From Selenomonadales bacterium (GTDB lineage Bacteria > Bacillota > Negativicutes > Sporomusales > UBA7701), in the NCBI GenBank assembly GCA_029975165.1, contig JARKPR010000085.1, positions 62,001 to 126,000 on the forward strand: DNA of 64,000 nucleotides. Direction: 5' to 3'. Position 1 is the first letter of the stretch. Every line of letters starts with the position of its first letter. This document shows positions 13,970-20,357 of this stretch, in pieces. The translations under genes were made by a program, and so were the position numbers. Below the pieces are notes generated by a model. It made no database searches, was not told the origin of the DNA, and was given only the letters and a program-made list of their open reading frames with translations.

Positions 13970-14500
13970 ATGATCACCAAAAGCCAGGAAATCGAAGAAC
14001 GCAGCATCGAGCGGATCGCCGACCTTATGTGCGTGGCGGCCCGCACCGCCCCGAAGGCGCGGGGCGTAGACAACCTCGTCGTCATGCTCGTCAAGGCGCG
14101 GGAAAAAGACCAGTTGGCGGAAGAAATGCGGAAGATCGCCGCCCAAAGCGGCAGCCAATTCTTCGCCCGCGACGCCGGCTGCCTCGACAAAGCGGCCGCC
14201 GTCATCCTCCTCGGCCAGAAAATCCAGCCCCTGGGCGTGAGCCCCTGCGGCTACTGCGGCAAGGGAAACTGCGCCGACTGTGCCAAGCAGGGCGGCCTCT
14301 GCGCCATAAGCATCGGCGACCTGGGCATCGCCATCGGCTCCGCGGTCGCCACCGCCGCCCTGCACCACATCGACAACCGGGTGATGTTCAGCGTCGGCAA
14401 AGCCGCCCTCAACCTGAACCTCTTCCCGGAAGACGTCACAATCGCCTACGGCATCCCCCTCAGCATCGCCGGCAAAAATATATTCTTTGACCGTGGTTAG
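13970..14500 (+). CDS. DUF2148 ferredoxin-domain protein
   Basis: A 176-residue protein of the DUF2148 family found mainly in anaerobes. Five cysteines lie close together in the middle: C93, C96, C101, C104 and C111, in SPCGYCGKGNCADC and GGLCA. This suggests one Fe-S cluster. The rest looks like a compact alpha/beta fold with a hydrophobic C-terminal half (GDLGIAIGSAVATAA). The function is unknown, though the family often neighbours redox or stress genes. A GGAGGAG ribosome site precedes ATG 13970, 19 bp after mutS2, so they probably share a transcript. A bidirectional terminator follows. Confidence 0.85.
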   Translation: MITKSQEIEERSIERIADLMCVAARTAPKARGVDNLVVMLVKAREKDQLAEEMRKIAAQSGSQFFARDAGCLDKAAAVILLGQKIQPLGVSPCGYCGKGNCADCAKQGGLCAISIGDLGIAIGSAVATAALHHIDNRVMFSVGKAALNLNLFPEDVTIAYGIPLSIAGKNIFFDRG

Positions 14501-15964: not shown

Positions 15965-16540
15965 CTAAAAATTCGTTTTCCAGTTAAGATACTTCCCCAG
16001 CCCCCGTTTCTCGCCGTCCGCCGCCTCGGGGCCCTCCTGCTTCTCGGCCAAGGCCGCGAGCGAGGTCACCGTGGCGGCGGTTGGGGGGACAGGTTGCTTA
16101 TCCTCGCCTTTTTCCTCCTTTTTGTCTCCGCCCTTGGCCGTCTCGCCCTTGTCGGTCTTCTCGCTTTTCTCAGTCTTCTCGCTCTTGTCGCCCATGTTGC
16201 CGAGCAAACCCATGATAGCCCCGATGGTGGTCGGATTGAGCTTTGACTTGATCTGGGGACTGTTAAGCAGCGGCAGGAGCGAGACCAGCGCTTCCGGCCC
16301 GAGCCCGCCGCCCTCCCCCTTGGCAAGATCGCCGAGCAGCTTCTGCAGCGGGCTGGCGCTGGCGACCGGCGCCGCCGCAGCCGTTCGCGGCTGGCCATGA
16401 CCGAGGATCGCCACCAGGCAGATCAGCGACAGGACGGGGATGAGCTGCTCGTAACCCGCCCCCTCGTTGACCGCGGCCTCGATCATCCTGGTCACCGACT
16501 GGAGCAGGGAACCAGGCTTTTCGACTGGTTCGTTGGCCAT
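15965..16540 (-). CDS. Hypothetical protein with central hydrophobic segment and Lys/Glu repeats
   Basis: A 191-residue protein that I do not recognise. It starts behind GAGGAGGGG, immediately after the ybaB-type gene, and the two form a minus-strand operon. Residues about 33-48 (IPVLSLICLVAILGHG) are hydrophobic and could be a short membrane segment or buried helix. The middle carries hydrophobic helices (SLLPLLN, TIGAIMGLLGNM). Residues about 115-145 are a low-complexity charged stretch of repeated K-S/T-E-K units, likely disordered. The C-terminus ends in an aromatic tail (YLNWKTNF). It could be a sporulation or envelope-associated factor, but nothing in the sequence proves this. Confidence 0.7.
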   Translation of the reverse strand: MANEPVEKPGSLLQSVTRMIEAAVNEGAGYEQLIPVLSLICLVAILGHGQPRTAAAAPVASASPLQKLLGDLAKGEGGGLGPEALVSLLPLLNSPQIKSKLNPTTIGAIMGLLGNMGDKSEKTEKSEKTDKGETAKGGDKKEEKGEDKQPVPPTAATVTSLAALAEKQEGPEAADGEKRGLGKYLNWKTNF

Positions 16541-16873: not shown

Positions 16874-16949
16874 AACGTTCACCTCCATATTGATTAATGA
16901 TAGACTATGCGTTGTCCGCCGGCTTGTGTGTGTCCAAAGAAAATGCGGG

Positions 16950-16977
16950 ACCGTTCGCCGTCGTCCGTCATATATTA
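16950..16977 (+). promoter_or_regulatory. Sigma-K-type sporulation promoter, copy 1
   Basis: AC at 16950-16951, 17 nt, then CATATATTA at 16969-16977. This matches the mother-cell sigma-K consensus (AC ... CATANNNTA) and partly that of sigma-E. It precedes the small gene at 17011. Three further copies with identical spacing follow downstream. Confidence 0.7.
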
Positions 16978-17010
16978 GAATAGAAAAAAACGCTGCGGGA
17001 GGAGTCACAT

Positions 17011-17358
17011 ATGCGCGGTCAGCGAAAAAATACACGGCGGTCGGTTCATATCACCGCAGATGCGGGCGACGACCAGGTAAAACTGGCAGAACCCGTCAAA
17101 AAAAGCAAGACAGGCAAACCACTGCGAATGCTCAAAAGGATTGTCGGCCACCCGGACTTCGGCTATCAGTGCATGGTAATCATGCTCTCCCTGACCCAGG
17201 GCAACGTCCCCATGGAGCGGCGGATCGACACCATGACCTCCTCGATCGAAACCCTCCGCAACATCGCCGGTGTCCTCACCAACGCCACGCAGTCCCTCAA
17301 GGCGGCGGCGGAAGCGCCCAAACAGATCCGGCGGCTCGTGACCCCGAACGACAGTTAA
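17011..17358 (+). CDS. Small basic hypothetical protein, probably sporulation-expressed
   Basis: A 115-residue protein with no family I recognise. It has a strongly basic N-terminus (RGQRKNTRRS, then KKSKTGKPLRMLKR). A hydrophobic patch follows (YQCMVIMLSLTQG, about 53-65), then an amphipathic helical C-terminal half rich in Thr/Ala (TMTSSIETLRNIAGVLTNATQSLKAAAEA). A GGGAGGAG ribosome site is well placed before ATG 17011. The upstream promoter is of the same sigma-K type as those of the three tiny peptide genes that follow, so it is probably made in the mother cell late in sporulation. A coat, cortex or membrane-associated role is possible but unproven. Confidence 0.72.
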   Translation: MRGQRKNTRRSVHITADAGDDQVKLAEPVKKSKTGKPLRMLKRIVGHPDFGYQCMVIMLSLTQGNVPMERRIDTMTSSIETLRNIAGVLTNATQSLKAAAEAPKQIRRLVTPNDS

Positions 17359-17374
17359 ATTCGTCGGGCGGGTA

Positions 17375-17402
17375 ACACTTCACGGCGTCGCTCCATATAT
17401 TG
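17375..17402 (+). promoter_or_regulatory. Sigma-K-type sporulation promoter, copy 2
   Basis: AC at 17375-17376, 17 nt, CATATATTG at 17394-17402 (last base off consensus). It precedes tiny peptide gene A. Confidence 0.62.
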
Positions 17403-17473
17403 AAGTAGAAGGGCGGGGCGGTCGAAGCTGTCTGGCACCGCCTTCAATAACGACATCAAGGGGGATGGAACAG

Positions 17474-17581
17474 ATGGGTAGAGGTTTTTGCGGCTGCGGT
17501 GGACGCGGATCGATTGTGGTTGTAATTATCATAATCATCCTTCTCCTGCTATTCTTCGACGACGAATCCGTCACCATCTAA
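17474..17581 (+). CDS. Tiny Gly/Cys-rich membrane peptide A (35 aa)
   Basis: The peptide starts MGRGFCGCGGRG and continues with an unbroken hydrophobic helix of Ile, then Leu, then Phe residues (14-28). It ends in an acidic tail beginning DDE. The N-terminus is glycine-rich with two cysteines (C6, C8). AAGGGG at 17458-17463 is the ribosome site; an in-frame ATG at 17465 would be too close to it. The layout (Gly-rich head, single membrane helix) resembles the tiny YjcZ-type sporulation peptides, but the acidic tail and CGCGG head differ. Its sigma-K-like promoter and two downstream paralogues argue that it is real. Confidence 0.78.
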   Translation: MGRGFCGCGGRGSIVVVIIIIILLLLFFDDESVTI

Positions 17582-17600
17582 CGGCATACTTATCATTGCG

Positions 17601-17633
17601 GGAACACGCGGCCAGCGTGTTCCTAAAATTTTG
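17601..17633 (+). terminator. Hairpin after peptide gene A
   Basis: GGAACACGC (17601-17609) pairs with GCGTGTTCC (17615-17623), followed by TAAAATTTT. The same arms recur after genes B and C. Confidence 0.7.
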
Positions 17634-17645
17634 CCCCGCTCAGTA

Positions 17646-17673
17646 ACCGATTAGGGCGATAGCCCATATATTA
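17646..17673 (+). promoter_or_regulatory. Sigma-K-type sporulation promoter, copy 3
   Basis: AC at 17646-17647 within CAGTAACCGA, 17 nt, CATATATTA at 17665-17673, then AACTG. It precedes peptide gene B. Confidence 0.72.
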
Positions 17674-17725
17674 AACTGTAGGGTTCCATAAACAGCTGAC
17701 ATGATTGCTAGGAGGGAGGACTGAC

Positions 17726-17839
17726 ATGGGTCGTGGGTTTGGCTGCGGTGGTGGCGGCCACGGAGTCGTCGCGGTGATCATCATAATAATCATTTTGCTC
17801 CTGTTCTTCTTCGAGGATGACGGACTCTCCACCATCTGA
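17726..17839 (+). CDS. Tiny Gly/Cys-rich membrane peptide B (37 aa)
   Basis: This is a paralogue of peptide A: MGRGFGCGGGGHG, then a hydrophobic helix (residues 14-29) with six consecutive Ile, three Leu and three Phe, then an acidic tail starting EDD. One cysteine (C7) remains in the GCGGGG head. An excellent GGAGGGAGGA ribosome site precedes ATG 17726. The gene lies between its own sigma-K-like promoter and a 12-bp hairpin terminator. The peptide would insert as a single-span membrane protein with the Gly/Cys head on one side and the acidic tail on the other. No function can be assigned. Confidence 0.8.
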   Translation: MGRGFGCGGGGHGVVAVIIIIIILLLFFFEDDGLSTI

Positions 17840-17857
17840 CAAAAGCAACCGCCCTAC

Positions 17858-17893
17858 AGGAACACGCTGCCAACAGCGTGTTCCTAAATTTTT
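17858..17893 (+). terminator. Hairpin terminator after peptide gene B
   Basis: Perfect 12-bp stem AGGAACACGCTG (17858-17869) and CAGCGTGTTCCT (17874-17885), followed by AAATTTTTAT. Confidence 0.8.
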
Positions 17894-17905
17894 ATCCCGA
17901 CAGTA

Positions 17906-17933
17906 ACCGACCAACAGGCAAAACCATATATTA
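17906..17933 (+). promoter_or_regulatory. Sigma-K-type sporulation promoter, copy 4
   Basis: AC at 17906-17907 within CAGTAACCGA, 17 nt, CATATATTA at 17925-17933, then AACTG. Both flanks match copy 3. Confidence 0.72.
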
Positions 17934-17984
17934 AACTGAAAGGGTCACAAAATCGGCAACGACTATTAGGAGGGAGGACTGAAC

Positions 17985-18101
17985 GTGAGTCGAGGATTCT
18001 TTGGCTGTGGTGGCGGCGGTAACGGATCGATCGTGGTGATTATCATCATCATCATCCTGCTTCTGCTGTTCTTCTTTGAGGATGAAGTTTCAACACTCTA
18101 A
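17985..18101 (+). CDS. Tiny Gly/Cys-rich membrane peptide C (38 aa)
   Basis: The third paralogue starts at GTG 17985 behind GGAGGGAGGA. The head is MSRGFFGCGGGGNG (one Cys, C8). A hydrophobic helix at residues 16-31 has six Ile, four Leu and three Phe, and the tail starts EDE. Across A, B and C the invariant features are R3-G4-F5, a G-C-G-G core, the ordered Ile-Leu-Phe run and an acidic cap. The codons differ between copies (for example ATC/ATA/ATT for Ile), which suggests selection on the peptide and not a recent copy. The gene carries its own promoter and hairpin. Confidence 0.8.
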   Translation: MSRGFFGCGGGGNGSIVVIIIIIILLLLFFFEDEVSTL

Positions 18102-18115
18102 CGTCGTACTTACAA

Positions 18116-18147
18116 CAGGAACATGCCGGGCGTGTTCCTGTCGTTTT
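18116..18147 (+). terminator. Hairpin terminator after peptide gene C
   Basis: CAGGAACATGC (18116-18126) pairs with GCGTGTTCCTG (18130-18140, one mismatch or wobble), followed by TCGTTTTTTG. Confidence 0.78.
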
Positions 18148-18196
18148 TTGCCGCGCCGCTGCGGCGGCTAATAATCTATATGCGGGCGTCGGCAAA

Positions 18197-18225
18197 AAAA
18201 ACACGCGCACGAAGCGCGTGTTTTT
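18197..18225. terminator. Bidirectional terminator between peptide C and the PBP gene
   Basis: 12-bp stem AAAACACGCGC-type (18197-18208) with GCGCGTGTTTTT (18214-18225), loop ACGAA. It has A tracts on the left and T tracts on the right, so it can stop both converging transcripts. Confidence 0.82.
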
Positions 18226-18230
18226 GCTTT

Positions 18231-20357
18231 CTAATTCTTGCGCGGCGACTCGGGTTTTGCGGGGGGCAGGGGAGGCGTCGGCCCGCCGGGCTTGGCCGGC
18301 GGCGGGGGCAGCGTCCGTTCGCCGCTGGAGGTGCCGTCGGCTGTGGAAGGTTTGTCGCCGTTCTTATCGTCGGTGGTCTGCGAAGGCTTGGTTGGCTGGG
18401 TGCCTTCGATGAATATCTCCTGCCGGGCATCCTTGCTTTTCGGATCGACCAGCAGGCCGTCCTTGGGCGAAACCGGCGCGGAAACGATGCCGCTCGGCCG
18501 GGGAAAGTCGCGCACCGGCGTATTAGCCAGCGCCGCCGTCATGAAGCTTTGCCAGATCGTCGCCGGCAAATCGCCGCCTGTCATCCCGTTCAAATATTCC
18601 GGCGTATCGCAGCCCATCCAGACGGCTGTCGCCAGGTCGGGCGTGAAGCCGACGAACCAGGCGTCCAGGTGGTCGCTCGTCGTCCCCGTCTTGCCGGCCG
18701 CCGGCCGGCCGATGTTAGCGCCGCCGCCCGTGCCGCGAATAAGGACGCCTTTCATCATATCGGTCAGGACGTACGCGCTGCGTTCGTTGATAACCGCCCG
18801 CGCGCGGGGCTGATGCTGCTCGAGCACCTTGCCGTTCCGGTCGACCACCCGCAGGACGGCGGTCGGCTCGACCCTCACCCCGCCGTTGGCCAATACGCCG
18901 TAAGCACTGGCCATCTCCAGCGGCGTCACCCCCCTGGTCAGGCCGCCCAGGGCCATCGCCAGGTTGACATCGTTCACCGGCCCGCGGGTGACCAGCGTCG
19001 AGATACCCATCTGCTGGGCGTAATACAGCGGTTTCTCCGGCCCGACCCGCTGGGCCAGCTTCACCGCCACGACATTCAGCGAATTCTCCAGGGCCGTCCG
19101 CAGCGTTACGCGGCCGCGGTACTTGTGATCGTAGTTGGTCGGCGAATAGTTGCCGATCGTAATCGGCTTGTCTTCCACGACGGTCGCCGGCGTCATCCCG
19201 CTCTCCAAAGCCGCCAGATACACGAACGGCTTGAACGCCGAGCCGGGCTGCCGCTCAGCCATGACCGCGCGGTTGAACTGGTCGTTGCCGCGGCCGCCGA
19301 CCATCGCCTTGACCTGGCCGGTATGCGTGTCGATAGCCACCAGCGCGCCCTGGGGCTGTTTGATGCCCTTGGCGTCCGTGCGGTAGGTAGGGAGCTTGGC
19401 CATAGCCTTCTCCGCCGCCCGCTGCATATCAAGATCAAGGGTCGTGTAAATCTTCAGACCGTCTTTATAAACCGCGTCCGCCCCGTACTTGTCGATAAGC
19501 TGCTGGGTCACGTAATCGACGAAATACGACGCCTCGCCGGTGCTGGACGGCGAACGGGTCGCCAGCTTGAGCTCGGTCGCCTTCGCCTTGTTGGCCGTAT
19601 CCTGGGAGATATACCCATACTTGACCATCTGATCGAGAACGATGCCCTGGCGATCCTTGGCCGCCTTAAGGTTGTTGAGCGGCGAATAATAATTCGGGCT
19701 CTTGGGAATGCCCGCCAGCAGCGCGCATTCCGCCAGGTTGAGATTCTCCACGTTCTTGCCGAAGTAAACCCAGGCCGCCGCCTGCACGCCGTAGGCGCCC
19801 TGCCCGAAATAGATCTGGTTGAGATAAAGCTCGAGAATCTCGGCCTTGGTATACTGGCGCTCGATCTGAATAGCGAGCACCGCCTCCTGGATTTTGCGCT
19901 TCAGCGTCTGCTCCTGGGAGAGCAGGGCGTTGCGCGCCAACTGCTGCGTTATCGTGCTCGCGCCTTCCGACACCCCGCGATCGAGGACATTGGAAAAAAC
20001 GGCCCGCACTATCGCGCGCGGATCGACGCCGAAATGGTTATAGAAGCGGGCGTCCTCGGTGGCGACAAAAGCGTTCTGCAAATCCTTCGGGACCTTGGCC
20101 AGCGGTACCGGCAGCCTGTTCTCCACCGAATGGATGGTCGCGATAAGCTTGCCGTTGCTGTCGAACACCTGCGACGAAGCGGCCGGGCGTATCTCCCCCT
20201 TGAGGCTGGGCATCGTATGGATGCTGGCCGTCAGGAAGCCGAGTCCCGCGCCGGTGATCAAAACGACGAATATGATGATGGCGATGGCGGCTAGGGTCAG
20301 CAGCTTTCCTTTGCTGCGTCGGCCATTCCTGCCGTTGTTGCTGGGGTCGGAGCTCAT
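18231..20357 (-). CDS. Class A penicillin-binding protein (PBP1A type)
   Basis: This bifunctional peptidoglycan synthase has 708 residues. One N-terminal membrane anchor lies at about 19-43. The GT51 transglycosylase domain has catalytic E101 in VATEDARFYNHFG and GASTITQQLARN at 132-143. The transpeptidase domain contains the nucleophile motif S373-x-x-K376 (GSAFKP), S426-L-N428 and K556-T-G. The tail after about residue 640 is Pro/Lys/Ser-rich and probably disordered. AAGGAGG precedes ATG 20357. It polymerises and cross-links peptidoglycan on the outer face of the inner membrane. Sporulation-specific class A PBPs exist, but nothing here proves such a role beyond the neighbouring sporulation-type cassettes. 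Confidence 0.94.
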   Translation of the reverse strand: MSSDPSNNGRNGRRSKGKLLTLAAIAIIIFVVLITGAGLGFLTASIHTMPSLKGEIRPAASSQVFDSNGKLIATIHSVENRLPVPLAKVPKDLQNAFVATEDARFYNHFGVDPRAIVRAVFSNVLDRGVSEGASTITQQLARNALLSQEQTLKRKIQEAVLAIQIERQYTKAEILELYLNQIYFGQGAYGVQAAAWVYFGKNVENLNLAECALLAGIPKSPNYYSPLNNLKAAKDRQGIVLDQMVKYGYISQDTANKAKATELKLATRSPSSTGEASYFVDYVTQQLIDKYGADAVYKDGLKIYTTLDLDMQRAAEKAMAKLPTYRTDAKGIKQPQGALVAIDTHTGQVKAMVGGRGNDQFNRAVMAERQPGSAFKPFVYLAALESGMTPATVVEDKPITIGNYSPTNYDHKYRGRVTLRTALENSLNVVAVKLAQRVGPEKPLYYAQQMGISTLVTRGPVNDVNLAMALGGLTRGVTPLEMASAYGVLANGGVRVEPTAVLRVVDRNGKVLEQHQPRARAVINERSAYVLTDMMKGVLIRGTGGGANIGRPAAGKTGTTSDHLDAWFVGFTPDLATAVWMGCDTPEYLNGMTGGDLPATIWQSFMTAALANTPVRDFPRPSGIVSAPVSPKDGLLVDPKSKDARQEIFIEGTQPTKPSQTTDDKNGDKPSTADGTSSGERTLPPPPAKPGGPTPPLPPAKPESPRKN

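Follow-up and report, generated by a model that had tools for sequence, protein, structure and literature searches.

A seemingly undescribed, multi-copy family of tiny, putative membrane peptides with sigma-K-type promoters in spore-forming Negativicutes

Introduction

YjcZ is a very short protein that combines a Gly-rich head with a single hydrophobic helix. SpoVM and CmpA are sporulation-linked microproteins of fewer than 40 residues, SpoVM being an amphipathic helix; in Bacillus both act as small regulators or assembly partners, and small single-helix proteins of such a size often regulate a partner. TatA has an amphipathic helix and a tail, and the peptides Ldr and Ibs belong to type I toxin-antitoxin systems, in which they are controlled by antisense RNA. 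According to excerpts of PMC517825, yjcZ belongs to the B. subtilis sigma-K regulon together with cotA, cotE and gerE, and excerpts of PMC517825 and PMC3789822 place the action of sigma-K late in sporulation, in the mother cell. A figure legend in PMC9562818 gives the Bacillus sigma-K consensus as MWCM-16-CATANNNTD, and for C. difficile the excerpt of PMC3789822 describes a -10 element common to sigma-K and sigma-E and a -35 element that differs between them (AC versus ATA). The spore-forming Negativicutes are presented, in the excerpted part of a 2021 review (PMC7985256), as producing endospores while retaining two membranes and as not yet genetically tractable; Acetonema longum keeps an outer membrane derived from sporulation (excerpts of PMC5007114 and PMC7985256). 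Because these two-membrane spore formers are not yet open to genetics, the parts of sporulation that are specific to Negativicutes are hardly known.

In the window, by which we mean the whole 64 kb stretch of DNA analysed here, an initial annotation had pointed to three consecutive tiny genes, whose peptides would carry a Gly/Cys/Arg head, a run of Ile, Leu and Phe and an acidic tail. Our analysis confirms that this observation is right, and finds it stronger than the annotation had claimed. It also brings out three things on which the annotation is silent: the promoters of sigma-K type, the conserved gene order and the neighbouring gene p115.

Results

All three open reading frames are present on the forward strand at the annotated positions (Table 1), each is preceded by a G-rich ribosome-binding site (Shine-Dalgarno sequence), and the head, the ordered run and the acidic tail are seen in all three peptides. 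For tiny gene 1 an alternative ATG lies at 17465, where it abuts GGGGG at 17460-17464, and therefore 17474 is the better start. The genome from which the window is taken holds five copies of the family, three in the window and two elsewhere.

Table 1. Features of the tiny-gene locus, in window coordinates.
Feature	Position	Strand	Remarks
p191	15965-16540	-	191 residues; beside ybaB in 20/20 loci
Sigma-K-like promoter of p115	16949..16977	+	GACC-N16-CATATATTA; one mismatch at -35
p115, companion gene	17011..17358	+	just upstream of the tiny genes in 20/20 syntenic loci
Sigma-K-type promoter of gene 1	17374..17402	+	AACA-N16-CATATATTG; exact match to MWCM-N16-CATANNNTD
Putative leader stem-loop of gene 1	17408..17445	+	GAAGGGCGG ... 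CCGCCTTC; 3' arm can alternatively pair with the ribosome-binding site
Tiny gene 1 (type A)	17474..17581	+	ATG start, 35 aa, MGRGFCGCGGRGSIVVVIIIIILLLLFFDDESVTI
Hairpin after gene 1	17601..17623	+	GGAACACGC..GCGTGTTCC; not terminator-like in terminator scan
Sigma-K-type promoter of gene 2	17645..17673	+	AACC-N16-CATATATTA; exact match to MWCM-N16-CATANNNTD
Tiny gene 2	17726..17839	+	ATG start, 37 aa, MGRGFGCGGGGHGVVAVIIIIIILLLFFFEDDGLSTI
Terminator-like hairpin after gene 2	17858..17885	+	terminator scan
Sigma-K-type promoter of gene 3	17905..17933	+	AACC-N16-CATATATTA; exact match to MWCM-N16-CATANNNTD
Tiny gene 3	17985..18101	+	GTG start, 38 aa, MSRGFFGCGGGGNGSIVVIIIIIILLLLFFFEDEVSTL
Terminator-like hairpin after gene 3	18115..18141	+	terminator scan

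In the three peptides, an Arg/Gly/Phe/Cys head is followed by Val/Ile, Leu and Phe in that order and then by Asp/Glu. The ordered blocks remarked on in the initial annotation are a trait of the whole family: within the hydrophobic core of 127 distinct peptides, which are related and so not 127 independent cases, the Ile/Val comes first in 97% of Ile/Val-Leu pairs, and the Leu in 92% of Leu-Phe pairs. Every one of the 127 contains Cys, Arg or Lys occurs in 121 heads and in a single tail, and 126 tails carry at least two Asp/Glu residues. By the positive-inside rule, such a distribution of Arg/Lys in the heads and acidic residues in the tails argues that the head faces the cytoplasm, and the charge layout thus suggests a peptide anchored N-in as a single membrane span. 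AlphaFold2, run with 15 sequences, predicts one helix over residues 12-36 (mean pLDDT 73, pTM 0.41), and together with the charges this supports the earlier reading of a probable membrane-spanning peptide.

We extracted 137 distinct members from the loci, having excluded six loci beforehand (two chance-like Bacteroidota pattern hits and four weak loci from outside the class). All three Ile codons are in use (428 ATC, 389 ATT and 134 ATA), and in 130 of the 137 members no codon is repeated more than four times in a row, so the open reading frames are not a codon repeat. The start codon is ATG in 133 members, and a G-rich Shine-Dalgarno sequence lies within 20 nt of the start in 135, a count that leans upwards since the choice of start favoured such signals. 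Between the paralogues in the window, pS is 0.61-0.71 versus a pN of 0.17-0.21. Nei-Gojobori counts pooled over pairs, with 33-39 codons each so that single values are rough, put the dN/dS of tiny gene 1 at 0.11 among four congeners, at 0.20 across six genomes of the bacterial family and at 0.07 for seven orthologues of genus g11, the genus with Sporomusa records. Tiny gene 2 gave 0.18 in four congeners and 0.33 with the window's own copy added, and tiny gene 3 gave 0.18 and 0.21, the orthology of the added copies being assigned by position. All seven orthologue sets therefore lie below 0.35, six of them at 0.07-0.21 and one at 0.33. These ratios show the orthologues to be under purifying selection, as the synonymous differences between the three genes had already suggested to the first annotator, and they are the opposite of what frame-disrupting substitutions would have left. 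We give hardly any credence to a low-complexity artefact, or to a conserved RNA that has been taken for genes: the long single-residue runs and the conserved leader and downstream hairpins would fit either, while the synonymous substitution pattern, the use of three Ile codons and the counts of ATG starts and, with the lean just mentioned, of Shine-Dalgarno sequences all speak against both, and Rfam over 16900-18300 returned nothing above gathering score, its two weak matches falling outside the open reading frames.

Searches of Pfam, NCBIfam, PHROGs and PDB profiles yielded either nothing or weak, chance-like matches through the hydrophobic run, PDB sequences gave no match at E<=1, and a description of the family was not found in the titles and opening abstract lines of the papers found on small proteins of spores and Negativicutes. 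The family therefore seems to be undescribed, in keeping with the initial annotation, which knew of no described family. That annotation had named YjcZ as the nearest in style, a comparison that holds for style and, judged by promoter sequence, may hold for sigma-K-type regulation, with no homology shown. The likeness is that both are very short and combine a Gly-rich head with one hydrophobic helix, and that yjcZ lies in the B. subtilis sigma-K regulon (PMC517825, in excerpt) and the tiny genes bear sigma-K-type promoters; the difference is that an ordered Ile-Leu-Phe run and an acidic tail are constant in the tiny family. Membership of YjcZ (PF09680) was rejected by the profile test, as none of the 36 members used to build our A1 profile matched YjcZ_2 at E<=1, and none of 28 genomes of the order exceeded the Pfam cut-off, the best score being 20.2 bits against 21 in an 86-residue frame; a B. 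subtilis control did exceed it. TatA/TatE (TIGR01411) matched 10 of the 36 members weakly (best E 0.0088) and did not match the first member scanned, and the tiny peptides leave no room for an amphipathic helix and tail such as TatA has. SpoVM and CmpA resemble the family as small sporulation-linked microproteins, a comparison by description only, and by description rather than by sequence SpoVM is set apart, as the tiny peptides have a fully hydrophobic span.

With the 37-residue peptide as query, matches at E<=0.001 were found in all six genomes of the bacterial family, in 27 of 28 genomes of the order and in 47 of 380 genomes of the class; the A1 profile at E<=0.0001 matched 53 of the 380, the most in any one genome being 13 matches, in G007 and G098. 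Among the holders that a DNA-pattern scan names are Sporomusa acidovorans, S. malonica, S. silvacetica, Sporomusa sp. KB1 and Anaerospora hongkongensis, two of the 11 stretches in that scan being Bacteroidota records that we take as chance. A protein-level search for named relatives returned 588 pattern stretches, of which none was confirmed.

This distribution follows spoIVA (TIGR02836), used here as a proxy for the ability to form spores and found in 52 of the 380 class genomes at E<=0.001 (51 over its cut-off). Counted among related genomes with kinship ignored, 50 genomes have both the family and spoIVA, 325 have neither, three have the family only and two have spoIVA only. The family-only genomes are G010, G100 and G118 (65, 83 and 93% complete), of which G100 and G118 also have the companion gene p115, and the spoIVA-only genomes are G013 and G315 (72 and 87% complete); four of these five discordant genomes are thus less than 90% complete, G118 standing at 93%. 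Conserved members are accordingly present in related spore formers, in nearly exactly the carriers of spoIVA, and within the genomes searched the family appears to be kept almost only by spore-forming Negativicutes. Outside the class, the A1 profile at E<=0.0001 matched four of 397 other sampled genomes of the phylum, all weakly, whereas spoIVA was found in 66 of 77 checked (62 over cut-off; 76 genomes at every third handle from G380 to G605, and G544, which was added for its hit). Most of the sampled spore formers elsewhere in the phylum thus have no recognisable member, and among the sampled genomes the sporulation-specific pattern holds within the class and not across the phylum. One of the four outside matches lies inside a 474-residue frame; the other three (G602, G544 and G410) are tiny open reading frames with a Gly/Trp-containing head and a hydrophobic helix, all in genomes with spoIVA, but with weak scores (24.8-28.9 bits) and other tails (basic in G602 and G544), and we regard them as possible cousins. 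At locus L087 of G410, three tandem tiny open reading frames with a common WWIVILILFLIFFVD form a possible cousin array in another class.

The surroundings of the tiny genes are conserved as well. With domain names taken from Pfam matches to the genes of the window, the order is peptidase U32, mutS2, (DUF2148), p191, ybaB, p115, the tiny genes and PBP1A. In 20 syntenic loci from 14 genera and eight families, which include the window's own and were picked for a hit there rather than at random, every locus has mutS2, p191, ybaB, p115 and one or more tiny genes, 19 have PBP1A, and a family member occupies the position of gene 1 in all 20. The cluster holds one to three tiny genes by pattern, to which the profile adds a few weaker ones. 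The companion p115 is a conserved protein with a basic N-terminus, for which Pfam and NCBIfam gave no match at E<=10 and PHROGs only weak ones (best E 0.052). It is present in 50 of the 55 genomes that carry the family or spoIVA (missing from G010, G013, G020, G122 and G123) and in none of 25 hand-picked others. Upstream of p115, CATATATTR occurs in 19 of the 20 loci and GACC, AACC or AACA at spacing 16 in 16, so that p115 shares both the kind of promoter and the genome distribution of the tiny family. The gene p191, beside ybaB, drew no hit from Pfam or NCBIfam at E<=10, and a 98-nt tRNA-Asp that ARAGORN places at 14128-14225 (minus strand), inside the DUF2148 gene at 13970-14500, is probably spurious.

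Each tiny gene in the window is preceded by an exact match to the published sigma-K consensus. The window contains five such sites against 0.58 expected, three of them on the tiny genes, and TAAC-N12..24-CATATATTR, a pattern written after the tiny-gene sites had been seen, has exactly three hits in the window, all on the tiny genes, and none in 100 shuffles. In the wider family, MWCM-N16-CATANNNTD is found exactly in 62 of the 137 members, compared with a mean of 0.9 in shuffled sequence and 2 of 137 on the reverse strand, and other spacings (14, 15, 17 and 18) give only 3, 5, 3 and 7 members. The element CATANNNT alone occurs in 125 of 137 (35 in shuffles), and of the 75 members in which the exact promoter is absent at least 63 retain it. 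Patterns for sigma-E, sigma-F/G and sigma-A were not enriched upstream (0, 3 and 2 of 137 versus 0.2, 3.1 and 1.8 in shuffles). Given the distinction between AC and ATA, the AAC at -35 of the tiny genes favours sigma-K; control of some members by sigma-E is possible, because the -10 element is common to both factors and the sigma-E pattern was strict at both boxes. Two findings weigh against sigma-K control. The site of the gene 1 promoter coincides in part with a sigma-70-like one, scored 9 of 12; the scan concerned gave two sites against 1.1 expected. Neither the genome of the window nor the B. subtilis control gave a match over the TIGR02846 cut-off for sigK, and the top hit in the window's genome (254 bits, positions 19-226) may represent either sigE or sigK. 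A separate observation, at G000:C80:52418-52684 (L105) and L004, is that the C-terminal half of a gene resembling sigK (profile positions 138-226) is present on C80 with no N-terminal half; a tiny-family paralogue that has a CATAGGATA promoter and, by eye, a catalase-like gene are found upstream of it in the same orientation. Possibly a skin-like element with a family member inside interrupts sigK there; alternatively, the draft is incomplete.

These promoters also bear on whether the genes are tandem small hydrophobic toxins of a type I toxin-antitoxin system under antisense RNA control, a reading that we consider very improbable. Tandem tiny hydrophobic frames accompanied by hairpins would be expected of such a system, but the sigma-K-type promoters, the near-perfect restriction to class genomes with spoIVA and a chromosomal position fixed in 14 genera would not, and a scan of the minus strand over 16900-18300 for promoters of the sigma-70 type, the one type covered, gave no match.

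Since each tiny gene has a promoter, the genes look like separate transcription units, with read-through from gene 1 being possible. A hairpin like GGAACACGC/GCGTGTTCC follows the first tiny gene in 13 of the 20 loci, and the exact hairpin occurs at two places only in the genome of the window, after genes 1 and 2. All 20 gene-1 leaders are preceded by GTAACAMTT and a CATATATT-like -10 element, followed by GAAGTAGAAGGGCGG, exactly in nine of the 20 and as variants in the others. The 3' arm of the leader can pair with the 5' arm or with the ribosome-binding site, and own pairings beat swapped ones modestly (84 and 9 of 5000 swapped-pairing permutations for the 20 leaders, 40 and 75 of 5000 for 11 representatives; 762 and 796 of 5000 for the control pair of 5' arm and ribosome-binding site). 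The single-sequence fold of the gene 1 leader does not form the putative stem, and the fold z-scores of the leaders range from -0.7 to -4.8. The pairing is no more than suggestive of a leader riboregulator of gene 1, which stays an idea because the sequences are related and the z-scores mostly modest. Short motifs were also seen 3' of the tiny genes, TACTTA at 17587-17592 and TACTTAC at 18107-18113; within 45 nt past the stop, TACTTAC occurs in 26 of 137 members versus 0.59 in mononucleotide shuffles and TACTTA in 42 versus 2.35, also at paralogues elsewhere. In G007, the paralogues L035, L155 and L158 are followed by ACCTCCTT, which is complementary to a Shine-Dalgarno sequence (by eye).

Discussion

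At the level of sequence, the three tiny genes are shown to be real, selected, conserved and spore-linked genes with sigma-K-type promoters. We propose, with about even confidence, that they encode sporulation microproteins of spore-forming Negativicutes, made late in the mother cell and inserted N-in, which decorate the outer spore membrane or the base of the coat. Judging from the promoters, sigma-K RNA polymerase would transcribe each tiny gene from its own promoter, late and in the mother cell. The peptide would then insert as a single helix; going by its charges, its Arg/Gly/Cys head would stay in the cytoplasm of the mother cell and its acidic tail would lie on the far side of the membrane. 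As a single-span peptide made late in the mother cell, it would enter the membranes on the mother-cell side, and in the engulfed sporangium this may mean either the membrane of the mother cell itself or the outer spore membrane. There, numerous copies could pack their Gly/Cys heads densely on the side of the coat, as a layer that might anchor or cross-link its base.

Instead of forming a structural layer, the same peptides might serve a single larger membrane protein, as its small regulators or as partners in its assembly, which we hold to be possible though unlikely. Their size is typical of single-helix proteins that regulate a partner, the Ile/Leu/Phe run is as strongly conserved as a helix-helix contact would be, and p115 accompanies them in all 20 loci. 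Tandem copies and as many as 13 matches per genome, however, resemble the dosage of a bulk component, and at 27 paralogue loci elsewhere than in the cluster the neighbouring genes, judged by eye from their translations, are varied and show no common function.

If the peptides do decorate the outer spore membrane, the family could be part of what sets the sporulation of diderm Firmicutes apart, coating that membrane and helping to protect or convert it; we consider this extension doubtful. In these bacteria the outer spore membrane, derived from the mother cell, would persist and become the outer membrane of the cell that grows out. If true, this extension would explain why the family tracks spore formation in Negativicutes and is nearly absent from the other sampled spore formers. 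The tiny family is a compact, multi-copy microprotein part with matched promoters and a constant neighbour, rare in the other spore formers sampled. As 50 of the 52 class genomes that bear spoIVA have it, it could help to tell from a draft genome of the class whether the bacterium is able to form spores, and it offers a lead into how the outer spore membrane is built in diderms.
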